Shown: positions 2,724 through 13,183 of the stretch, piece after piece | Layout: every line of letters starts with the position of its first letter | Numbering within the stretch: the stretch's first letter is position 1 | Origin: Sandaracinaceae bacterium | Lineage (GTDB): Bacteria > Myxococcota_A > Polyangia > Polyangiales > Sandaracinaceae | Length of the DNA stretch: 64,000 nt | Reading direction: 5' to 3' | NCBI GenBank assembly: GCA_019637095.1 | Contig: JAHBWG010000002.1 | Coordinates: 1-64,000 of the forward strand | Position numbers and translations under genes: made by a program | The notes under the pieces: generated by a model | What the model was told of the DNA's origin: nothing | The model's input: the letters and a program-made list of their open reading frames with translations, nothing else | Database searches by the model: none

Positions 2724-4106
2724 TCAGAACGGGTTGGCGGGGAGGGCGGCCGCCGCGAGCGGCGCGCCGCTCGCCGGGTCGAGCGAGCCGGGCGCGACGC
2801 GCACGATGCGGTCCGTCGGCGGATAGCGCAGCCGGTGGTGCTCGATGCGCACGCCGCGTGCGTCGCGGACCGTCCGCTCCCGCAGGATCGTGAAGCCACG
2901 CAAGGGTCGTTGCGTCACGCGCTGCTGGCCGGGCGCGACGGTTGGGTCCTCCACGTAGCGGTCCGACCACGCGTCCGTCGAGAGCGTCTGCCGGTGCCAC
3001 TCGACGGTCGCGGGCCGGCGCGGTCCCCACAGCTCGACGACCAGCTGCCCGGCCTCGGCGCGCGCGCGCACCTCGAGCGGGACCTCGTAGGGGTTCGCGA
3101 TCACGAGATCGACGTTCGGCCACACTACGGTCGCGTCGAGGCCCATCGGGATGTACGCGCTCGGCCGCGAGTGGGGCCGGTGCTCGGCGATCTCGAGCCC
3201 CGCGAGGAAGGCGGCGGCGTGCAGCGTGCTCGCGACCTGGCAGACGCCGCCGCCGATGCCGTCGACCATCTCGCCGTCGAGGATCACGTGCGCGACGCGG
3301 TAGCCGCGCGCGACCGAGCGGTCGCCGACGCGGTCGTTGAAGCTCAGCCGCCCGCGCGCCGGGACGGTGGCGCCGTCGAGGAGCGACGCCGCGAGCGCGA
3401 CGTTGTGCGCGCGCGTGCGCTCGCCGCCGCGCGTCTCGTACTCGGTCCGGTACCGCGAGACGAGCACCGGCTCGACCCGCGCGGGCGGCCGCGGCGGGAG
3501 CGGCGCGCGCCCCACGCCCGACGGGATGCGCGTCACCGGGAGCCGCACCACGCCTTCCCCGGCGACGAGCGCGCTCAGGATCGCCTCGATGGCGGCGTCC
3601 TGCTCGAGGCGCGCCCCGTCGGCGCTCAGCTCGAGCAGGCGGCCGCGCTCGCTGACGCGCGCGGGGCGCGGCGGGTGATCGACCTGGTTGGCGAGATCGC
3701 GGACGAACTCCGCGACGGCCGCGCGGTCCGTGCGGATCGTCCACGCGAGGTCGACGCGGCCCGCCGCGGCGGCGAGCAGGGCCGGCACGTCGACGAGCGG
3801 GTTGCCCGTCCGCCCGTGCCGCTCGACCGCGGCGCGCATCGCCTCGACGTCGACGTCCGCGCCGAGCGCCTCGCGGGTGGGCCGGTGCAGGATCTCGCCC
3901 GCCTCGATCGCGAGATCCGCCGCGCGCCACCGCCCCGCCCGCGCCTCGAGCTGAGCGCTCGCGGGCGCGCGCGGGTCGAGCGGCTCGGCCGCGACGCGCA
4001 GCCCCTCCGCGAGCCGGCCGCTCGCGAGCATCAGCCCCCACGGGACGAGCGGCGAGGCGAGGGCCATCGTGAGCGCGACGAGCGCGATGCGCAGGGAGCG
4101 GGACAC
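2724..4106 (-). CDS. VanW family protein
   Basis: A 460-residue protein if the GTG at 4106 is used; it directly precedes a signal-anchor segment (SLRIALVALTMALASPL). An upstream ATG at 4172 would add 22 Arg/Gly-rich residues. The VanW domain lies at about residues 220-360, with the family hallmark GGGVCQVASTLHAAAF and the downstream HRPHSRPSAYIPMG block. The N-terminal half probably holds a peptidoglycan-binding-type region as in other VanW proteins, but I cannot prove this by eye. VanW proteins are envelope-associated and their activity is not established. The gene follows the ATP-grasp/GCS2 gene on the same strand after 114 bases, so it may share that transcript. Confidence 0.85.
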   Translation of the reverse strand: MSRSLRIALVALTMALASPLVPWGLMLASGRLAEGLRVAAEPLDPRAPASAQLEARAGRWRAADLAIEAGEILHRPTREALGADVDVEAMRAAVERHGRTGNPLVDVPALLAAAAGRVDLAWTIRTDRAAVAEFVRDLANQVDHPPRPARVSERGRLLELSADGARLEQDAAIEAILSALVAGEGVVRLPVTRIPSGVGRAPLPPRPPARVEPVLVSRYRTEYETRGGERTRAHNVALAASLLDGATVPARGRLSFNDRVGDRSVARGYRVAHVILDGEMVDGIGGGVCQVASTLHAAAFLAGLEIAEHRPHSRPSAYIPMGLDATVVWPNVDLVIANPYEVPLEVRARAEAGQLVVELWGPRRPATVEWHRQTLSTDAWSDRYVEDPTVAPGQQRVTQRPLRGFTILRERTVRDARGVRIEHHRLRYPPTDRIVRVAPGSLDPASGAPLAAAALPANPF

Positions 4107-4220
4107 GCCGGAGCGCAGTGTAACCGTCGAGCGCCTCGGACCGCCCGTTCGTGGCCCGCGTCCAGGCGCCACGGCGCTCGGTCGCGGCCGTGGGCGGTGG
4201 TCGATCGCGGAGGCGAGGGC

Positions 4221-6986
4221 TCACGTGCGGCCGCGCCAGGGCCGGTCGTGGCGCAGACACTCACAGAGCTCGCGGTAGGTCGCGCGCGCCGCGGCGTCGA
4301 GATCTTGCGCGGCCTCGACGTGTGCGCGGATGCGCTCCGACAGCGTCCCGCGCTGGCGGATCTGCTCGACGTGGTCGAGGTAGGGGCGCTCCGCGCGCCG
4401 CAGCCTCCGCTCGGCCCGCGTGATCATGCGCGCGGTGACCTCCGCGACCTCGGCGAGCCCGTCGTCCCCGCGCGACAGCCCGTGCAGATGCGGCGCGTGG
4501 ACCCGCGCGCGGCTGCCGTCGCGCACGCAGGCCTCGAGATCGGCGACGAGCAGGGAGTGATCCGGCAGCGCGAGCCGCCCTCGGATGAGGTCGACGCTCA
4601 GATCGTGGAGCGCCCCGCGCACGTAAGCGGCGATGGCCACGTCGAGCTTCGGGCACTCCTGCGAGTCGAGGACGCGGACCTCCATCGATCTGCGCGTGAG
4701 CTTGAAGACCGCGCCGCGCGCGTTGAGCCACTCGTGGCGGATCGCGCTCGCGTCCTCGAGCCGGTCGAGCGCCCGGTACATCGGGCCGAGCACGTCGCGC
4801 CGGTAGCCGGCCAGGCTCTGCACGTACTCGGGGACGGTCGCGCCCATGGACTCGGGGAGCCGGATCTGGTGGCCGAGGACGAACGCGAGCCGGTTGTCGG
4901 CGGCGGGCCCGAGCCGCCCGCCGTACATCGGCGAGCTCGCCGCGACCGCGGGGAGGTACGGGACGAGGAGGGCCGCGGCGTTCATCATCGCGACCGCCTC
5001 GTGCTCGCGTCCGAGGGGCAAGTTCACTTGCATGCTCTGGACGTTCGCCCACCCGTGCGTCGCGGTGTCGAAGAGGCGAGCGTACGTGTCGTACACGCGG
5101 CGCCCCGAGCGGGACCAGCGCACGGCGGCGGTGGGGTCGAGCCAGGGGTGCATCGACGTCGGCATCGGGCGGGCGCCGCGCTCCTCGAGCACGCGCGCGA
5201 GGCGCTCGACGCCCTCGGCGAGGAGAGCCTCCGTCTCGGTGAGGCTCGCGCGCGGCGCCACCGTCTTGAGCTCGATGAGGTGATCGAAGAGCTCGTTGGA
5301 GAAGCCGACCGCGCCGAGCTCGGCCTCCGAGGCTGGCCGGCCCGCGAGCGCGGCGAGGGCGGCCTCCGCGTCGTGCCGGATCTCGAGCGCGTCGTCGACG
5401 ATGGCGTACTCGACCTCGAGACCCACCACCTCGTACGCCCGGTAGTCGCGGGCGCGCGCGCGGAGCGCCGAGGAACGCGGGCGCGGCGCGTCCGAGGACG
5501 GAGGCTCGCTGCCCGCCGGCAGCGGCGCCGCGTCTTCGACGAGGCGCCGGACGAACCAGCCGAGCAGGTCCTCGTAGACGCGCTCCCCCTCGGCGGCGTC
5601 CTCGTAGTCGCGGTTGATGTCGGGGTTGTCGTTGACCTCGATGACCACCGGCCCTTCGCGCGTCTCCTTCAGGTCGAGCCCGTAGAGCCCGTCGCCGATC
5701 AGGCGCGCCGCCGCGCACGCGACGCGCTTGAGCGGGGCGGGGACCTGCTCGAGCGGCACCGCGACGACGCGTCCGTCGCGGGGCGCGCGCCCGGGCGCGC
5801 CGGTGCGCCGGATCTGCCAGTGCCCCGGGACCATGTAGTAGCGGGCGGCGAAGAGCGGCTTGCCGTCGAGCACGCCGATCCGCCAGTCGAAGTCCGTGCG
5901 CAGGTACTCTTGCGCGATCAGGATCGGCGAGGCGCGCAGGAGCTCGGGCACGCGCTCGTCCCAGACCTCGGGCGTGGGGATCTTGAAGACCGCGGTGCTG
6001 AAGGAGCCGTCGGGGACCTTGAGCACGAAGGGGCTGCCGAGCGCGCGGGTGACGTCGTCGTAGCTCGTCCCGCGCACGACGCGCAGCGTCGTCGGGGTCG
6101 GGATGCCGGCCCGCTCGAGGAGCTCGGCCAGGTACACCTTGTTCCCGCTCCGCAGGATGGAGTGCGTGTCGTCGATCACGGGCATCCCGAGCGCCTCGGC
6201 GCGCTGCGCGAAGCGGAACGCGGGGAGCGCGGGGCCCGTGAGGCAACGGATGAAGAGCGCGTCGTGCTCGGCGAGGCGTTCGAGATCACCGAGGCCGATC
6301 CGGCGGACGGCCACGCCCATGCGCTCGCCGATCCGTTCGAGGCGCGCGATCGCGTCGTCGTCGGACGGCTTGAACGGGTCGAGGGGGTCGTAGAGCACAG
6401 CGAGGCTCGCGCGGACGGGGCCGGCGCTCACCGCCGCGGTGTCGAACCGGCCGGCGCGCAGGCGCTCCGCGAGCGCTTCGCGGCCCGGGTCGTCGAGCTG
6501 ATCGAGCGAGCGCGCGCGCAGATCGTAGAGGCGCCACGCGCCGTCCGCGTGCACGAAAGAGAGCCGGCACGCGGGGACCGGGAGCCGCCGGTAGATCTTC
6601 GCCGCGGCGCGCGCGAGCTCGCGTCGATCGCAGCGCCCGAAGAGGCTGAGGATCTCGAGGCGGGGCGCCGCTCGGAGCGCGGGCAGGCGTGCAGGGTCGC
6701 GCAGGGTCGCGACGCCGGCTTCCTCGAGCACGCGCAGCGCCTCCGGGACGTTCACCAGCGTCTCGAGGGTGTCGATGGACGGGACCACCTCGTGGCCGCG
6801 CGCGTCGGCGAGGAGCGAGACGTAGTAGCCCTCGGAGAGGTAACGGCCGACGTCGCACAGATTGAGGACCGTGACGCCGCCCGCCGGCGCGCGGGCCGCC
6901 TCCTCCGCGAGGTAGCTCGACGGCTCCACGGTCTCGATGCCCGCTAGCGCGCTCGGCGCGATCACCATGGTGCGGCGGCGGCTCAT
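4221..6986 (-). CDS. RimK-like ATP-grasp / GCS2 (glutamate-cysteine ligase type 2) fusion amidoligase
   Basis: A 921-residue fusion of two different carboxylate-amine ligases. Residues about 38-180 are an RLAN-type domain (RimK-like ATP-grasp N-terminal; VLNLCDVGRYLSEGYYVSLL). Residues about 190-480 are the ATP-grasp core, with metal-ligand motif VIEVNDNPDINRDYED at 448-463 (E450, N452). A Pro/Ser linker (485-510) leads to a GCS2 domain, about 515-900, starting GLEVEYAIVDD and containing MEVRVLDSQECPKLD. ATP-grasp and GCS2 enzymes both form amide bonds through acyl-phosphates, so the protein could perform two successive ligations on one substrate. It starts two bases after the C39-like peptidase stop, so the two genes are almost certainly co-transcribed. 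The substrate is unknown; a glutamate- or cysteine-containing small peptide is a guess from family knowledge. Confidence 0.9.
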   Translation of the reverse strand: MSRRRTMVIAPSALAGIETVEPSSYLAEEAARAPAGGVTVLNLCDVGRYLSEGYYVSLLADARGHEVVPSIDTLETLVNVPEALRVLEEAGVATLRDPARLPALRAAPRLEILSLFGRCDRRELARAAAKIYRRLPVPACRLSFVHADGAWRLYDLRARSLDQLDDPGREALAERLRAGRFDTAAVSAGPVRASLAVLYDPLDPFKPSDDDAIARLERIGERMGVAVRRIGLGDLERLAEHDALFIRCLTGPALPAFRFAQRAEALGMPVIDDTHSILRSGNKVYLAELLERAGIPTPTTLRVVRGTSYDDVTRALGSPFVLKVPDGSFSTAVFKIPTPEVWDERVPELLRASPILIAQEYLRTDFDWRIGVLDGKPLFAARYYMVPGHWQIRRTGAPGRAPRDGRVVAVPLEQVPAPLKRVACAAARLIGDGLYGLDLKETREGPVVIEVNDNPDINRDYEDAAEGERVYEDLLGWFVRRLVEDAAPLPAGSEPPSSDAPRPRSSALRARARDYRAYEVVGLEVEYAIVDDALEIRHDAEAALAALAGRPASEAELGAVGFSNELFDHLIELKTVAPRASLTETEALLAEGVERLARVLEERGARPMPTSMHPWLDPTAAVRWSRSGRRVYDTYARLFDTATHGWANVQSMQVNLPLGREHEAVAMMNAAALLVPYLPAVAASSPMYGGRLGPAADNRLAFVLGHQIRLPESMGATVPEYVQSLAGYRRDVLGPMYRALDRLEDASAIRHEWLNARGAVFKLTRRSMEVRVLDSQECPKLDVAIAAYVRGALHDLSVDLIRGRLALPDHSLLVADLEACVRDGSRARVHAPHLHGLSRGDDGLAEVAEVTARMITRAERRLRRAERPYLDHVEQIRQRGTLSERIRAHVEAAQDLDAAARATYRELCECLRHDRPWRGRT

Positions 6987-6987
6987 C

Positions 6988-7698
6988 TCAGCGGGGCCGG
7001 CTCACGACGACGAGGACGCCGTCGTAGGTGACGTCGCCGAGGAGCACGGCGTTGAGGAGACGGCGCGCCGCCACCTCGTAGCGGTGCCCTGCGCCGAAGG
7101 GGTTGTGGGGGTAGGGGTCGACCACGTCGAAGCGAGCGCCTCGCTCGGAGTAACCGTCGATGACCACGAAGTGTCCGGCCGGCTCGCCCGCGACGTCGTC
7201 CGGCCGGCTCGTCGCCGGGTCCTCGCGCGGGGCGCCGTAGAGGTAGGTGGCGCTGAGCCCGGCGATGAGGGGGCGGCCCGAGTCGAGCAGCTGCACGAGC
7301 AGCGACGGATCGAAGTCGTCGAACGAGATGCGTCCGCCCCGCTCGAGGAAGTCCACGTACGCCATCGCGATCGCCGCGAGGCGGGGGTCGGTCACCGCCG
7401 CGGCGCGGGCCGCGAGCTTGGCGGTGAGCGCGGCCGCGCTCAGTCCGGCCCACGTCGGATCGAAGACGCGGAGGTTGCAGCTGAAGAGGGTGACCTCGTA
7501 GCCGAGCTCGATCGCGGCGCGGCCGAGGTGGACGCCCACCGTGCCGCCGTCGGGGTTGCGCTCGACGCGCGCGGCGAGCTCGAGGAACGAGCGTGGATCG
7601 CCGTGGTGCGCGAGGACCTGCGCCAGGCAGGTGGGCCCGCAGCTGACGTCATCGGGCTGCGTGAGCGCGGGCACGCCGTGGAGGATGCGGTCGGCCAA
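6988..7698 (-). CDS. C39-like papain-fold cysteine peptidase
   Basis: A 236-residue soluble protein without a signal peptide. The motif QPDDVSCGPTCLAQVLAHHG carries the candidate nucleophile C20, GHFVVIDGY carries H176 and VVDPYPHNP carries D194, which together form the peptidase C39-like triad. Family members cleave peptide or amide bonds, for example leader peptides, but here no transporter is fused or adjacent. It is the first gene of the leftward amidoligase operon, with only one base before the fusion ligase. A peptidase beside a peptide-forming ligase suggests trimming, release or recycling of the product. The role is inferred from context. Confidence 0.82.
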   Translation of the reverse strand: MADRILHGVPALTQPDDVSCGPTCLAQVLAHHGDPRSFLELAARVERNPDGGTVGVHLGRAAIELGYEVTLFSCNLRVFDPTWAGLSAAALTAKLAARAAAVTDPRLAAIAMAYVDFLERGGRISFDDFDPSLLVQLLDSGRPLIAGLSATYLYGAPREDPATSRPDDVAGEPAGHFVVIDGYSERGARFDVVDPYPHNPFGAGHRYEVAARRLLNAVLLGDVTYDGVLVVVSRPR

Positions 7699-7847
7699 CG
7701 CCCGTACCGTAGAGCACCGGTTCGTCCCAGACCACCGGTCTCACGGGCGGAACCGGCTCCCGTCGCGACGCGCGCCCGTGGGCGTCACGTCGCCGGCGAC
7801 AGCGGGGCCGTGGATCGGCGATGATGGAGCTGCCCCGAGGGCGCGGT

Positions 7848-8552
7848 ATGACCCTCCGACTCCTCCTCACCTGCGAGCACGCGCGCAGCGCCGTCCCCGA
7901 CGGCGTGGAGCTCGGCGTCGAGCCGGCGCACCTCGCGACGCACGTCGCCTACGACCGCGGGGCCCTCGCCATCGCGCGCGGTCTCGCCGAGGCGACCGGC
8001 GCGCCGCTGCACGAAGGCGCCTACAGCCGGCTCGTCGTCGACCTCAACCGCATGGCCGACAACCCGGAGGTCATCGCGGCCGTCACGAGCGGCCTCGCGG
8101 TCCCGGGCAACGCCGCGCTCGACGCGCCCGCGCGCGCCGCGCGCATCGCGCGGTGGCACACGCCGTGGCGCGAGGCGGTCCGCGCCGAGGCGATCGCCCT
8201 GTCCGCGCGCGGCTACTGTCTGCACCTCTCCATCCACTCGTTCGATCCCGCGGTCGATCCGCCGCGGCGGGGCTTCGACGCGGGCGTGCTGTTCGATCCC
8301 GCGCGCGTCCCGGAGCGCGCGCAGGCCGCCGCGCTGCGCGACGCGCTCGTGAGCGCCGGCTTCGCCGCGCGGCTCAACGAGCCGTTCCACGGCACGCCGG
8401 AGGGCACGACGAGCTGGCTGCGCGCGCAGCTCCCGCCGCACGGCTACGGCGGCGTCGAGCTCGAGGCGTCCTACGCATGGGTGGACGATCCCTCGCGCAC
8501 CGCGTCGTACGTCGCGGCCATCGCCCGCGCCGTGGCCGCGATCCGCGCGTGA
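7848..8552 (+). CDS. N-formylglutamate amidohydrolase family protein
   Basis: A 234-residue hydrolase of the N-formylglutamate amidohydrolase (HutG-type) fold. The start at 7848 is preferred over ATGs at 7821 and 7824. It has a GAGGG ribosome site six bases upstream and gives the family-like N-terminus MTLRLLLTCEHARSAVP. Visible motifs are the N-terminal CEH, YSRLVVDLNR near the middle and LHLSIHSFDP, which carry probable metal-binding and catalytic residues. It is transcribed divergently from the peptidase/amidoligase operon across about 150 bases. No histidine-degradation genes are nearby, so hydrolysis of an amide made by the neighbouring ligase is more likely than a hut role. That assignment is inference. 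Confidence 0.85.
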   Translation: MTLRLLLTCEHARSAVPDGVELGVEPAHLATHVAYDRGALAIARGLAEATGAPLHEGAYSRLVVDLNRMADNPEVIAAVTSGLAVPGNAALDAPARAARIARWHTPWREAVRAEAIALSARGYCLHLSIHSFDPAVDPPRRGFDAGVLFDPARVPERAQAAALRDALVSAGFAARLNEPFHGTPEGTTSWLRAQLPPHGYGGVELEASYAWVDDPSRTASYVAAIARAVAAIRA

Positions 8553-8585: not shown

Positions 8586-10301
8586 GTGCCGCTCAGCGTC
8601 GGCGCCGTGATCGCGGGGAAGTACCGGCTCGAGCGCCTGCTCGGCGAGGGCGGGATGGGCCGCGTCTTCGTCGCGAACAACGAGCGGCTCGACAAGCGCG
8701 TCGCGCTCAAGGTGCTCAGCGAGGCGGCGGCGACCTCGCCCGACGCAGCCGCGCGCTTCACCCGCGAGGCGATCGCGGCCTCGCGCGTCAACCACCCGGG
8801 CATCGTCGAGATCTACGACGCGGACGTCCACGAGGGGCAGCCGTGGATCGCGATGGAGCTGCTCGCCGGCGAGAGTCTGGGGGAGCGGCTCGAGCGCGGC
8901 CCGCTCTCCGTCGAGGAGGCGCTCGCCGTCGCGATCGAGGCGCTCTCGGTCCTCGAGCTGGTGCATCGCGCGGGGATCGTCCACCGCGATCTCAAGCCCG
9001 ACAACTTGTTTCTCCACGTGCAGGGCGACGGGCGCCGCGTCGTCAAGGTGCTCGACTTCGGCATCGCGAAGGTCCACGGCGGCGAGCTCGGGAGCGACAC
9101 GCGCACCGGGATGGCGATGGGGACGCCGCTCTACCTCGCGCCCGAGCAAGCGCGCAACGCGAAGGACGTCGACGCGCGCGCCGATCTCTACGCGGTCGGC
9201 GCGATCCTCTACCACGCGCTCACGGGCAAGCACCCCTACCACGTCGAGTCGTTCGGCGACCTCGTCGCGCAGATGTTCACCGTCGGGCCGCGCTCGCTCT
9301 CGCTCGACGCGCCGCACCTCCCGCCTTCCCTGTGTGCGGTCGTGGACGCGTGCCTGTCGGTCGAGCGCGATCGGCGGCCGCGCTCGGCGCGGGAGCTGCG
9401 CGAGGCGCTCGAGGGGATGCGGTCCGGGGCGAGGTCGGCCCCGCTCGCGGTGACGGCGCCGATGGTCGCGCCGCCGGCGCCGGCGCTCGTGCCGACGCAC
9501 GCGTGGGGCCCGCCGCCGCCCCACGGCGTCCCCGCGTTCGTACCGGTGGCGGCGCCCCGCGCGCGCGGCGCGCTCATCGCGGTCCTCGCGGTCGTCGGGC
9601 TCGTCGCGGGCATGGGGATGGCGGCCACCGTCGCGGTGGTTGCGCTCGAGCCGGGCGCACCGCCACCCCGAGCCGCCGCCGAGCGCCCCCCGCCCGTCCG
9701 TCGCGAGCCCGAGCCGGCTGCGGAGCGCGCGCCCGAAGCGACGCTCGGCGCGGTCGAGATCGAGACGGACCTCGAGCGCGGGATCCTCTTCGTGAACGGC
9801 GCGCCGCGGGGTGCGATCGCCGACACGAGGCGCGTCGCGCTGCCGCACGGCGCCCATCAGCTCGAGGTGCGCGACGGTGAGGAGCGGCTCGCCGGGCCCG
9901 AGTCGGTCCTCGTCGCGGACGACGGCGTCGTCGTCGTCGTGACGCTGCGGCGCCCGCATACCGCCGCGGACGAGCCGCAGGTCGAGGCCTCGAGCGCGTC
10001 GCCGTCCGCCGCGTCGGACCCGCAGGCGGACGCCCGGCGTTGCGTGCTGCGTGGGGACAACGCCTGCGTCATCCGGCTGCTGTCGCCGCCGGGCCGCGCC
10101 AACGACGCCGCGTCGCTCGCGATGCTCATCGAGGCGTACCGCGCGCAGGGGCAGACGCGCGAGGCGGAGCGGGCCATGGAGCTGTTCGTGCGCCGCTACC
10201 CGACGCACGAGCGCGCGCGGCGGTATCGCGAGATCCTCCAGATGCAGCGAGGCGGGAGCGGCGGCGGGCGGCGGGACGTGATGCCGAGCAACCCCTTCTG
10301 A
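8586..10301 (+). CDS. Ser/Thr protein kinase, membrane-anchored, PEGA-like extracytoplasmic region
   Basis: A 571-residue Hanks-type kinase starting at a GTG. The kinase domain is residues 12-275, with glycine loop GEGGMG (20-25), K42, HRDLKPDN (133-140), DFG (157-159) and APE (185-187), all canonical. A Pro/Ala-rich juxtamembrane segment precedes one transmembrane helix at about 327-350. Outside it lies a region with a PEGA-like strand pattern (IETDLERGILFVNGAPRG) and then a short TPR-like helical tail (ACVIRLLSPPGRANDAASLA). It lies 33 bases after the amidohydrolase gene on the same strand and may be co-transcribed. The phosphorylation target is unknown. Confidence 0.93.
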   Translation: MPLSVGAVIAGKYRLERLLGEGGMGRVFVANNERLDKRVALKVLSEAAATSPDAAARFTREAIAASRVNHPGIVEIYDADVHEGQPWIAMELLAGESLGERLERGPLSVEEALAVAIEALSVLELVHRAGIVHRDLKPDNLFLHVQGDGRRVVKVLDFGIAKVHGGELGSDTRTGMAMGTPLYLAPEQARNAKDVDARADLYAVGAILYHALTGKHPYHVESFGDLVAQMFTVGPRSLSLDAPHLPPSLCAVVDACLSVERDRRPRSARELREALEGMRSGARSAPLAVTAPMVAPPAPALVPTHAWGPPPPHGVPAFVPVAAPRARGALIAVLAVVGLVAGMGMAATVAVVALEPGAPPPRAAAERPPPVRREPEPAAERAPEATLGAVEIETDLERGILFVNGAPRGAIADTRRVALPHGAHQLEVRDGEERLAGPESVLVADDGVVVVVTLRRPHTAADEPQVEASSASPSAASDPQADARRCVLRGDNACVIRLLSPPGRANDAASLAMLIEAYRAQGQTREAERAMELFVRRYPTHERARRYREILQMQRGGSGGGRRDVMPSNPF

Positions 10302-10315
10302 GCGGAGGATAGGCC

Positions 10316-11788
10316 TCACCAGGGGACGGGGCGGTAGTCCTTGAGGAACTGACCCCACACGTGCGTCCCCGTGAGCACACCGTCGATGATCGGATCGACG
10401 ATGCGCGCCGCGCCGTCGACGACGTCGAGCGGCGGGTGGAATCCGTGCACGTCCACCTTCTTCACCGCGAGCTCGTGCGGATCCTCGTCGGTCACCCAGC
10501 CGGTGTCGACGCTGTTCATGTGGATCCCGTCGCGCAGGTAGTCGGCCGCGCTGGTGCGGGTCATCATGTTGAGCGCGGCCTTCGCCATGTTCGTGTGCGG
10601 GTGCTTGTCCGTCTTGAACTCGCGATAGAACTGGCCCTCCATCGCGCTGACGTTGACGATGTGCTTGTCGCGCGCGGCGGTGCGCCGCATCGGCTCGCGC
10701 AGGCGCGCGTTGAGCACGAACGGGGCGACGGCGTTCACGAGCTGCACCTCGAGCAGCTCGACCATCGGGACCTGATCGAGGGTGAGCCGCCACGAGTTGA
10801 GCGATCGCAAATCGACTTGCTGTCCGTCGGCGTCGAGCCTTCCCTCTGGGAAGAGGCGCAGGTCGCGCCCGACGTCCTCCTCGAGCAGCGCCACCTGGCT
10901 GAGCGCGACGGAGTCGGCGAGGGCGGCCTCGCCCCGGCGCGCGAGCGCGCTCGCGCGGAGCGCCCGGTGTCCCTCGAGGAGCGCGCGCGCGGGCGCGCCG
11001 AGCTCGTCGGGGGTCTCGTGGTCGAGCAGGTGTTGGTAGAACCCGGCCGGGCGCCGCACCGTCTGGCACGCGTTGTTGAGCACGTAGTCGAGCCGCGGCA
11101 GCGTGGCGGCGAGGTGCGCGGCGACGCGCTCCACGCTGGGCGTGTGCCGCAGGTCGAGCCCGTAGATCGAGAGCCGGTCGCGCCAGCCCTCGAAGTCCGC
11201 CTCGGCCGCGTAGCGGCGCGCCGCGTCGTGCGGGAAGCGCGTGGTCACCACCACCGCGGCGCCGGCCCGCAGGAGCTTGATCGCGGCGTGGTAGCCGATC
11301 TTCACCCGCGCGCCGGTCACCACGGCGACGCGCCCCGACAGGTCCGCGGTGCGCAGGCGCCGCTCGTAGCTCAGCGCCGCGCAGGGCGGGCACAGCTGGT
11401 CGTAGAAGTGGTGGATCGTCGCGTACGGCGCCTTGCACACGTAGCACTTGCGGGGCTCGCCGACCTCGCCCGCGGGCGCCTCCGTCGCCTCGCCCGGGAG
11501 CGCCGGTGGCGTCGGGAACGTCAGCTCGACGCGCAGGCGGCGGATCCCCGTGCGCGCGAGGACCGCCTCGTCGCGCGCGCGCTCGTCCCTCTCGAGGGCG
11601 CGGCGCCGCGCCTTCGCCGCCGCGCGCAGCTCCGCGCGCTCGGGCCGTGACACGCGCCCAGCCGCGACGACGAGCGCGCGGCGGGCCGGCGCCTCGAGGC
11701 GATCGAGGAGCGCGCGGTCCTCGACGATCGCCTCGAGCGTCTCGCGGCACGCGTGGAGGCGTCGGATCAGCTCGTCGTCGCTCGGCAC
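10316..11788 (-). CDS. SDR-family oxidoreductase with N-terminal zinc-ribbon-like domain
   Basis: A 490-residue protein starting at GTG 11788. Residues 1-100 are helical. A probable zinc ribbon follows, with C115-x2-C118 and C133-x2-C136 (KCYVCK and LCPPCAAL). A Rossmann SDR domain then runs from about 151 onward (RVAVVTGARVKIGYHAA, LDYVLNNACQTV). The segment equivalent to the SDR active site reads HTNMAKAALNMM, so a Thr occupies the position of the usual Tyr of YxxxK, while the Lys and an upstream Ser (VNVSAMEG) remain. Family-level recognition is firm; substrate and reaction are unknown. The gene is convergent with the kinase and divergent from the Cys-rich lipoprotein. Confidence 0.82.
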   Translation of the reverse strand: MPSDDELIRRLHACRETLEAIVEDRALLDRLEAPARRALVVAAGRVSRPERAELRAAAKARRRALERDERARDEAVLARTGIRRLRVELTFPTPPALPGEATEAPAGEVGEPRKCYVCKAPYATIHHFYDQLCPPCAALSYERRLRTADLSGRVAVVTGARVKIGYHAAIKLLRAGAAVVVTTRFPHDAARRYAAEADFEGWRDRLSIYGLDLRHTPSVERVAAHLAATLPRLDYVLNNACQTVRRPAGFYQHLLDHETPDELGAPARALLEGHRALRASALARRGEAALADSVALSQVALLEEDVGRDLRLFPEGRLDADGQQVDLRSLNSWRLTLDQVPMVELLEVQLVNAVAPFVLNARLREPMRRTAARDKHIVNVSAMEGQFYREFKTDKHPHTNMAKAALNMMTRTSAADYLRDGIHMNSVDTGWVTDEDPHELAVKKVDVHGFHPPLDVVDGAARIVDPIIDGVLTGTHVWGQFLKDYRPVPW

Positions 11789-11869: not shown

Positions 11870-13183
11870 GTGTCGGGCGCGCGCCGTTGGCTCTTCACCG
11901 CGCTCGTCGCGCTCGCCGGCTGTGATCCGTCGTCGGGCGCGCTCGCCGTCAGCGTGATCACCGATCTCGAGCCGGGCGCGGACTTCATCGGCGTCGAGGT
12001 CGAGGTGTTCCAGGGCGCCGATCGGGTAGGGCACCAGGAGGCGATCGTCGCGCCGGGCGACTGGACGCGGCCGACGCCGCTCGCCGACGTGGTCGGGCTC
12101 GCGCCCGGCCGCACGCGGGTCGTGGCGACGTTGCTCGCGCCGCGCCGCGACGTCGTGGTGAGCCGCGCGGTGATGATCGACGTCGAGTCCGCGCACGCGC
12201 TCGTCATCGTGCTCTCGTCGAGCTGCGTGCGCGTCGAGTGCCCAGGCCCGGGTGACCCCGCCGACGCGACGACGTGCGCGGGCGGGCTCTGCGTGGCGCC
12301 CGACTGCGGGGACGACTGCGGCTGCGCGTCGGACCGCGACTGCCCGGCGAGCGCGGTCTGCGGCGCCGGTCGCTGCGCGAGCGGCACGTGCATCTATCCC
12401 GACGGCGCGCGCGCGTGCCCCGAGGGTGACGTGTGCCACCCGGCGCGCGGGTGCGTCGCCGCGAGCTGCGCGTGCGACGACGGCGACCCGTGCACGGTCG
12501 ATCTGTGTGAGGGCTCGCGCTGCGTGCATCGTCCGCGCGAGGGCGCGCCGTGCGACGACGGGGTCTTCTGCAACGGCCCCGACCGCTGCGACGAGGCCGC
12601 GGCGTGCGTCAACGCGGGGCCCCCGCCGTGCGCGCTCGCCGCGTGCGACGAGGCGGCCGCGACGTGCATCGTCGGCTGTGAGACGGACGCGGACTGCCCC
12701 GCGGAGGTCTTGGGATCCTGGTCCGAGTGCGAGTACGCCGACGAGTGCGCCCAGGGCGGCGAGCGCACGCGCGACGTGACGCGCTTCACCTGCGTCGAGC
12801 GCCGCTGCGCGCCGCAGGCGAGCGTCGAGGCCGAGCTGTGCACGCGCGTGACCGAGTGGTCGAGCTGCGGCGGGGGCGAGTCGTGCGAGCCGTGGACGGG
12901 TTGCCGCTTCGCGGACTGCGCGACGAGCGGCCGGGACGCGCGCCTCTGCTACTCGCGCACGTGCCGCTCCGGGGCCTGCAGGGTGACGAGCCGCGAGGAG
13001 TCGACGCCGTGCAGCCGCGGCTCGCAGGACGGCCAGGCGTGCGCGTCGAACACCGGCTACGGCTACTGCCACGGCACCTGCGCGGGCGCGACGTGTGCCG
13101 ACCTCTGCGTCTACTGCGACGGCTTCTGTTCGATCGGTGGCTGCCTCCGGCGCGTGGACTCGAGCTACTGCACGCCGCCGTGA
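11870..13183 (+). CDS. Cys-rich repeat lipoprotein
   Basis: A 437-residue exported protein. The GTG at 11870 is chosen because it immediately gives a lipoprotein signal (RRWLFTALVALAGC). The earlier in-frame ATG at 11753 would overlap the divergent SDR gene. Residues about 20-115 form a beta-rich domain (DFIGVEVEVFQGADRVG). The rest is Cys-rich repeats of the type common in myxobacterial surface proteins, such as CACDDGDPCTVDLCEG and CDDGVFCNGPDRCDE. The protein is probably tethered to the outer membrane. No catalytic motif is visible; it could be an adhesin-like or structural surface protein. Confidence 0.8.
   Translation: MSGARRWLFTALVALAGCDPSSGALAVSVITDLEPGADFIGVEVEVFQGADRVGHQEAIVAPGDWTRPTPLADVVGLAPGRTRVVATLLAPRRDVVVSRAVMIDVESAHALVIVLSSSCVRVECPGPGDPADATTCAGGLCVAPDCGDDCGCASDRDCPASAVCGAGRCASGTCIYPDGARACPEGDVCHPARGCVAASCACDDGDPCTVDLCEGSRCVHRPREGAPCDDGVFCNGPDRCDEAAACVNAGPPPCALAACDEAAATCIVGCETDADCPAEVLGSWSECEYADECAQGGERTRDVTRFTCVERRCAPQASVEAELCTRVTEWSSCGGGESCEPWTGCRFADCATSGRDARLCYSRTCRSGACRVTSREESTPCSRGSQDGQACASNTGYGYCHGTCAGATCADLCVYCDGFCSIGGCLRRVDSSYCTPP

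Follow-up and report, generated by a model that had tools for sequence, protein, structure and literature searches.

A single locus in a Sandaracinaceae genome encodes two predicted amidoligase modules and two predicted hydrolases and is a rearranged, fused, still linked variant of a four-gene set that occurs complete in at least 11 phyla. The locus lies in the window, by which we mean the whole 64,000-nucleotide stretch analyzed (contig JAHBWG010000002.1, positions 1 to 64,000). The operon is widespread and, as far as found, appears to be uncharacterized, its product apparently never having been identified. Searches of the open literature for RLAN (PF14401) and for the gene combination yielded no characterized member and neither a product nor a phenotype, and the label of an "unknown peptide product" given in the initial annotation is still apt.

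In 2009, Iyer et al. reportedly predicted ATP-grasp/GCS2 amidoligase-peptidase operons that combine an RLAN-type RimK ATP-grasp enzyme with GCS2-like ligases and with peptidases whose folds are unrelated, and reportedly proposed that such sets serve peptide synthesis or recycling or the tagging of proteins. Compared with those predicted sets, the three-domain fusion and the inverted gene for the FGase-family hydrolase in the window are lineage-specific. The 2009 study is cited in PMC12239564, PMC10318531, and PMC8939145. Since two ligases and two hydrolases have been kept together in at least 11 phyla with no other constant neighbor, the operon should have one definable product. The fused ligase of the window is a convenient single protein for substrate finding and makes this long-standing prediction directly testable.

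Organization of the locus and its predicted enzymes

Genes for a C39-like peptidase, an RLAN/ATP-grasp/GCS2 ligase, and a divergent N-formylglutamate amidohydrolase, which the initial annotation had placed together, were all found at the positions listed here, with family matches above the curated cutoffs (the RimK match was just at its cutoff).

4221..6986, minus strand: fused amidoligase of 921 aa with RLAN, RimK-type ATP-grasp, and GCS2 modules (Pfam/NCBIfam)
6988..7698, minus strand: C39_2 papain-like cysteine peptidase of 236 aa (Pfam)
7699..7820, no strand: intergenic stretch of 122 bp between the divergent peptidase and FGase genes (sequence)
7821..8552, plus strand: FGase-family (N-formylglutamate amidohydrolase-like) hydrolase of 243 aa (Pfam)

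The peptidase gene is the upstream gene of the minus-strand pair, and its stop codon is separated from the ligase ATG by 1 base (TGA-G-ATG). Its own start is an uncertain TTG, with an in-frame GTG 8 codons downstream. Because the FGase gene is on the plus strand, the set in the window consists of a two-gene operon and one divergent gene, and the 122-bp gap could have room for two promoters. The GC content of the region (0.74 to 0.75) is ordinary for that part of the window, and long open reading frames (ORFs) on the opposite strand (e.g., 2835-6947 and 6937-7824, both on the plus strand) were set aside as antisense artifacts of high GC.

The 921-aa ligase is divided as follows.

Residues 24-174: RLAN domain (98.7 bits, above cutoff)
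Residues about 236-458: RimK-type ATP-grasp module (just at the family cutoff)
Residues 521-795 plus a C-terminal extension: GCS2 module (91 bits, above cutoff)

The ATP-grasp module contains the Mg-binding motif EVNDNP, and E-x-N-D-N-P was invariant in the alignment of its relatives. Sequence comparison gave RimK and LysX as its nearest solved relatives, and with its E-x-N signature the module is a predicted member of the RimK/LysX clade of amidoligases. GxExE and many other residues of the GCS2 module were likewise invariant among relatives, and the AlphaFold model (pLDDT 93.8) matched YbdK (Z 40.9), plant GCL (Z 36.7), Dop/PafA (about 21), and glutamine synthetases (about 15). The modeled GCS fold with its metal-binding GxExE motif indicates that this module is probably a gamma-glutamyl ligase family enzyme; no profile alignment was obtained between it and Escherichia coli GshA.

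The 236-aa peptidase scored 46.5 bits with Peptidase_C39_2 (above cutoff), and Gln14, Cys20, His176, and Asp194 were invariant in an alignment of 32. Its AlphaFold model (pLDDT 94.3) matched C39 transporter peptidases and the glutathione-cleaving Alr0975 about equally well (Z 15 to 16). With a Cys-His-Asp triad, an oxyanion Gln, and the corresponding modeled fold, the protein is a predicted papain-like C39 peptidase. The 243-aa FGase belongs to its family by profile (98.9 bits, above cutoff) and by conserved His and Glu residues (C18-E19-H20, H135, H139, E213, and E215 were invariant in an alignment of 30), and its nearest solved structure was Atu2144 (2odf; E 2.5e-43). Assignment as the HutG N-formylglutamate deformylase was rejected, the equivalog score of 17.4 bits being far below the cutoff of 278.75. 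In each of the four families the catalytic-type residues do not vary, and all four enzymes therefore look functional; what individual residues do is taken from background knowledge of these families.

The joining of three domains in one ligase is specific to this lineage; elsewhere, two genes encode them. Fusion of RLAN-RimK to GCS2 was found at eight loci including the window, all in Myxococcota, and the six fused ligases long enough for the tree were set apart from the rest by a branch of 100% SH-aLRT support, with one state change needed (the tree was made by a quick method, with SH-aLRT support and no bootstrap). In a relative of the same family (genome G005), C39 also precedes the fused ligase, and identity is 59 to 66% module by module. 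The FGase gene comes directly after the ligase gene, on the same strand, at three other loci with the fusion (L075, L076, and L077), so that the inverted FGase gene of the window seems to be a local change.

Conservation and co-occurrence of the four functions

The check suggested in the initial annotation, conservation of the neighborhood across Myxococcota, gave a clear answer. RLAN was present in 37 of 377 Myxococcota genomes, and when 38 loci around RLAN genes were fetched and searched with the window proteins, the same neighbors were found almost every time. A wider scan of genomes of 84,980 species gave at least 590 ligase relatives, the best 80 of which were kept and, together with the Myxococcota loci, made up a set of 118 loci. 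Both ligases were present in 103 of these, and all four functions (the ligase modules, C39, and FGase) were present in 57, counted anywhere in the fetched stretch; absences are upper bounds, since contig ends cut many loci. Full sets occurred in at least 11 named phyla (Myxococcota, Pseudomonadota, Planctomycetota, Bacteroidota, Thermodesulfobacteriota, Omnitrophota, Spirochaetota, Balneolota, Ignavibacteriota, Acidobacteriota, and Nitrospirota). Culturable carriers of the operon include Nitrosomonas communis and a Pontibacter, and Pontibacter ruber and Thiobacillus thioparus are examples in which RLAN-RimK and GCS2 are separate proteins. A lack of co-occurrence, which the initial annotation had named as telling against its cluster, was thus not observed: the three functions travel together, at these loci and at the genome level (p 1e-22 to 1e-45). 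Judged by this distribution and by the conserved gene order, the arrangement far exceeds what chance would give.

The usual, though not universal, order among relatives was C39, RLAN-RimK, GCS2, and FGase on one strand, with FGase last in most. This order was not found in the window, where C39 precedes the fused ligase on the minus strand and FGase is inverted on the plus strand. Neighboring genes overlapped at 49 of 86 C39/RLAN junctions, 68 of 91 RLAN/GCS2 junctions, and 44 of 55 GCS2/FGase junctions, most often by 4 bases (gene starts came from a simple caller, and some overlaps may be off by one start codon). When 1,399 predicted genes were clustered, the four members were found in 110, 100, 90, and 60 loci and the next family in only 6, and among 427 flanking genes searched against Pfam in four batches, no family exceeded 4 members within a batch. 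At this sensitivity, therefore, the loci share no precursor peptide, carrier protein, transporter, or regulator.

Profiles specific to the module gave the same picture for whole Myxococcota genomes. The C39 profile matched 28 of 377 genomes, all 28 of them RLAN positive (p 8e-35); the GCS2 profile matched 36, including 35 with RLAN (p 8e-46); and FGase at about 220 bits or more, a line drawn after the scores had been seen, was present in 26, of which 22 were RLAN positive (p 5e-22). These p values overstate independence, since the genomes share ancestry. Across 46 complete loci, pairwise distances of the four proteins were correlated (r 0.69 to 0.87; Mantel p 0.001). Within families the module has a scattered distribution, and in the ligase tree the phyla are intermixed, a pattern suggesting that it has repeatedly been transferred or lost as one unit.

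At the center of the system stand the two ligases, which occur together in 35 of the 37 genomes with RLAN; the hydrolases accompany them in many cases but not in all. C39 was absent from 9 of the 37, and some genomes lacked FGase or had the two ligases only, so strict pairing of ligases with hydrolases is not universal. Close FGase relatives were also present in genomes without RLAN. By profile comparison, the window proteins appear to be members of module-specific subfamilies, beyond the broad families: C39 matched at 1.8e-86, GCS2 at 1.2e-144, and FGase at 4.3e-70, values that are partly by construction in that these proteins sit in the profile alignments, while the other FGase of the genome matched the module FGase profile at 2.1e-37. 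One genome without RLAN carries a module-subfamily GCS2 (G329:C10:53421-54656; 247 bits).

A proposed pathway and its alternatives

We tentatively propose, at somewhat short of an even chance, that the module is a self-contained cytosolic pathway that makes and recycles a small non-ribosomal gamma-glutamyl-type peptide. The gene set, its order and co-occurrence, the intact catalytic-type residues, the folds, and the fusion were observed or computed; the substrates, the order of steps, the pairing of each hydrolase with one ligase, the cytosolic location, and a free small-molecule product are what we infer. The GCS2 module, like GCL and YbdK, would activate the gamma-carboxyl of glutamate and couple it to an amine, giving gamma-Glu-X, and the RimK-type module would activate a carboxylate of this intermediate and add a second amino acid, or repeat. 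The C39-like cysteine hydrolase would cut the RimK-made bond via an acyl-enzyme and the FGase-like hydrolase would cut the N-acyl or gamma-glutamyl bond, and each ligase would have its own reversing hydrolase. As the ligases are fused in this lineage, the intermediate would probably be handed between active sites.

This proposal is suggested by the conserved order, overlaps, co-occurrence, correlated divergence, and ligase fusion in one clade; by the match of the GCS2 fold to gamma-glutamyl ligases and of the C39 fold to Alr0975 as well as to C39 peptidases; and by the flanks, in which neither a transporter nor a carrier or precursor gene recurs. Counting against it are the known role of RimK enzymes in modifying proteins, the genomes that lack one or both hydrolases, and the close FGase relatives in genomes without RLAN. 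In some loci, RLAN-RimK overlaps or stands beside a GNAT acetyltransferase gene (L140, L151, L166, and L176 in Gammaproteobacteria and L087 in Myxococcota), with GCS2, C39, and FGase absent, as an alternative RLAN system; a RimB-like retropepsin was considered as the partner there, and the partner is GNAT. Because RLAN-RimK can adjoin GNAT without GCS2, its substrate need not be gamma-Glu-X.

Glutathione synthesis, by GCL and glutathione synthetase or by GshF, likewise uses GCS-fold and ATP-grasp ligases that are sometimes fused. In GshF, the GCS domain comes first and ATP-grasp second, and its GCS subfamily differs from GCS2 here. In contrast, the window ligase has ATP-grasp before GCS2, with RLAN and two hydrolases in addition; identity with GshF was rejected on the reversed order and on the absence of an equivalog-level NCBIfam match. 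Elsewhere in the genome, a separate, stronger GCS2 match and a strong GSH-S_ATP match are candidates for GshA and GshB, so glutathione is presumably made there and the module product is probably another peptide; replacement of glutathione by the module in this genome was set aside accordingly. YbdK, a carboxylate-amine ligase, has the closest solved fold to the GCS2 module, with GIELE aligned, but it stands alone and identity is about 15%. The C39 protein shares its fold (Z 15.9 over 165 residues) with Alr0975, a primitive phytochelatin synthase (PCS) that acts on a gamma-Glu tripeptide, glutathione, through an acyl-enzyme; however, identity is only about 18%, C39 transporter peptidases score equally, and sequence searches find C39 rather than PCS. 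Removal of glycine from glutathione by a papain-like enzyme is known from phytochelatin synthase (PMC10318531). That the myxobacterial three-domain ligase makes, within one protein, an unrecognized glutathione-like peptide metabolite or cofactor, with its own synthesis and recycling enzymes and patchily distributed in many bacterial phyla, is a serious but doubtful possibility.

Among the alternatives to a small peptide, reversible protein modification, in which a protein would receive glutamate or a small peptide from RimK (and perhaps GCS2) and lose it again through C39 and FGase, seems somewhat unlikely. Ligases and hydrolases are indeed encoded together, as would be expected, and there is precedent in PafA/Dop with Pup and in ribosomal protein S6, to which RimK adds glutamates that the aspartic protease RimB removes (PMC12239564). 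RimK-RimB is also a RimK-type ligase with a genetically linked reversing protease, but RimB is a retropepsin, whereas the module has papain-like and FGase hydrolases and an extra GCS2 ligase. The GCS2 model does resemble Dop/PafA (Z about 21), although far less than the small-molecule ligases YbdK and GCL, its nearest matches (Z 36 to 41); two ligases of different folds exceed the needs of a single tagging step, and no protein-substrate or tag gene recurs near the module. An osmolyte-type di- or tripeptide resembling N-acetylglutaminylglutamine amide, which would accumulate under salt stress and be degraded by the two hydrolases, is quite unlikely. This analogy draws on the GNAT genes that RLAN-RimK overlaps in several Gammaproteobacteria and adjoins in one Myxococcota locus and on MscS channel genes that a handful of Myxococcota loci carry close to the module; however, in the Myxococcota survey just 2 of the 136 flanking proteins matched MscS, the other three batches did not have it among their top families, and carriers include non-halophiles. 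The osmotic link hinted at by these few neighbors was therefore dropped.

Scavenging of gamma-glutamyl amines or amides, with the ligase activating an amine for catabolism and the hydrolases releasing glutamate, is very unlikely. Glutamine synthetase-like ligases serve amine catabolism in this way (the GmaS and PuuA routes), which counts in its favor, as do agmatine-deiminase-like (PAD_porph) genes near the module at two loci (L063:3830-5059 and L083:12446-13402), but no dehydrogenase, aminotransferase, or transporter recurs, and the second, RimK-type ligase has no obvious catabolic role. We consider maturation of a graspetide-like ribosomal peptide, whose precursor would be cross-linked by ATP-grasp and relieved of its leader by the C39 peptidase, highly improbable. 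Known graspetide loci do pair ATP-grasp ligases with C39-peptidase ABC transporters (PMC8939145), but the C39 protein of the module stands alone with no transporter attached, RLAN and GCS2, its conserved partners, have no place in that system, the overlapping genes leave no space for a precursor between them, and no small ORF or transporter recurs. Neither a precursor gene nor a C39-ABC transporter was found beside the ligase in a search that covered ORFs of 35 aa or more; among close relatives, whole regions were similar and a comparison did not tell short ORFs apart. A role in anti-phage defense was rejected, there being no PADLOC match.

Genes near the module

Three Myxococcota loci have, close to the module, a second cassette that encodes an ordinary RimK and a deacylase of the AstE/AspA type, with an unassigned 479-aa protein alongside in two of them.

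L072:14293-17735: RimK and AstE/AspA-type cassette
L083:13458-15315: RimK and AstE/AspA-type cassette
L086:4739-7164 and 12100-13074: RimK and AstE/AspA-type cassette

In the window, a gene for a VanW and PG_binding_4 protein (2724-4172, minus strand) adjoins the module; a relative in G005 with 56% identity (L062:8837-10201, minus strand) is also next to the module but flanks it on the opposite side, where it neighbors the C39 gene. The FGase gene is directly followed downstream by a gene for a Ser/Thr protein kinase with a C-terminal TPR-like stretch (8586-10301, plus strand), whose best NCBIfam match, to a PknB/PASTA kinase domain, was well under the cutoff and whose position is not conserved at the module elsewhere. 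The 490-aa product of the gene at 10316-11788 (minus strand) has an SDR domain interrupted by an insertion, with a cysteine-rich stretch (CYVCKAPYATIHHFYDQLCPPC) before it, an unusual SDR architecture.
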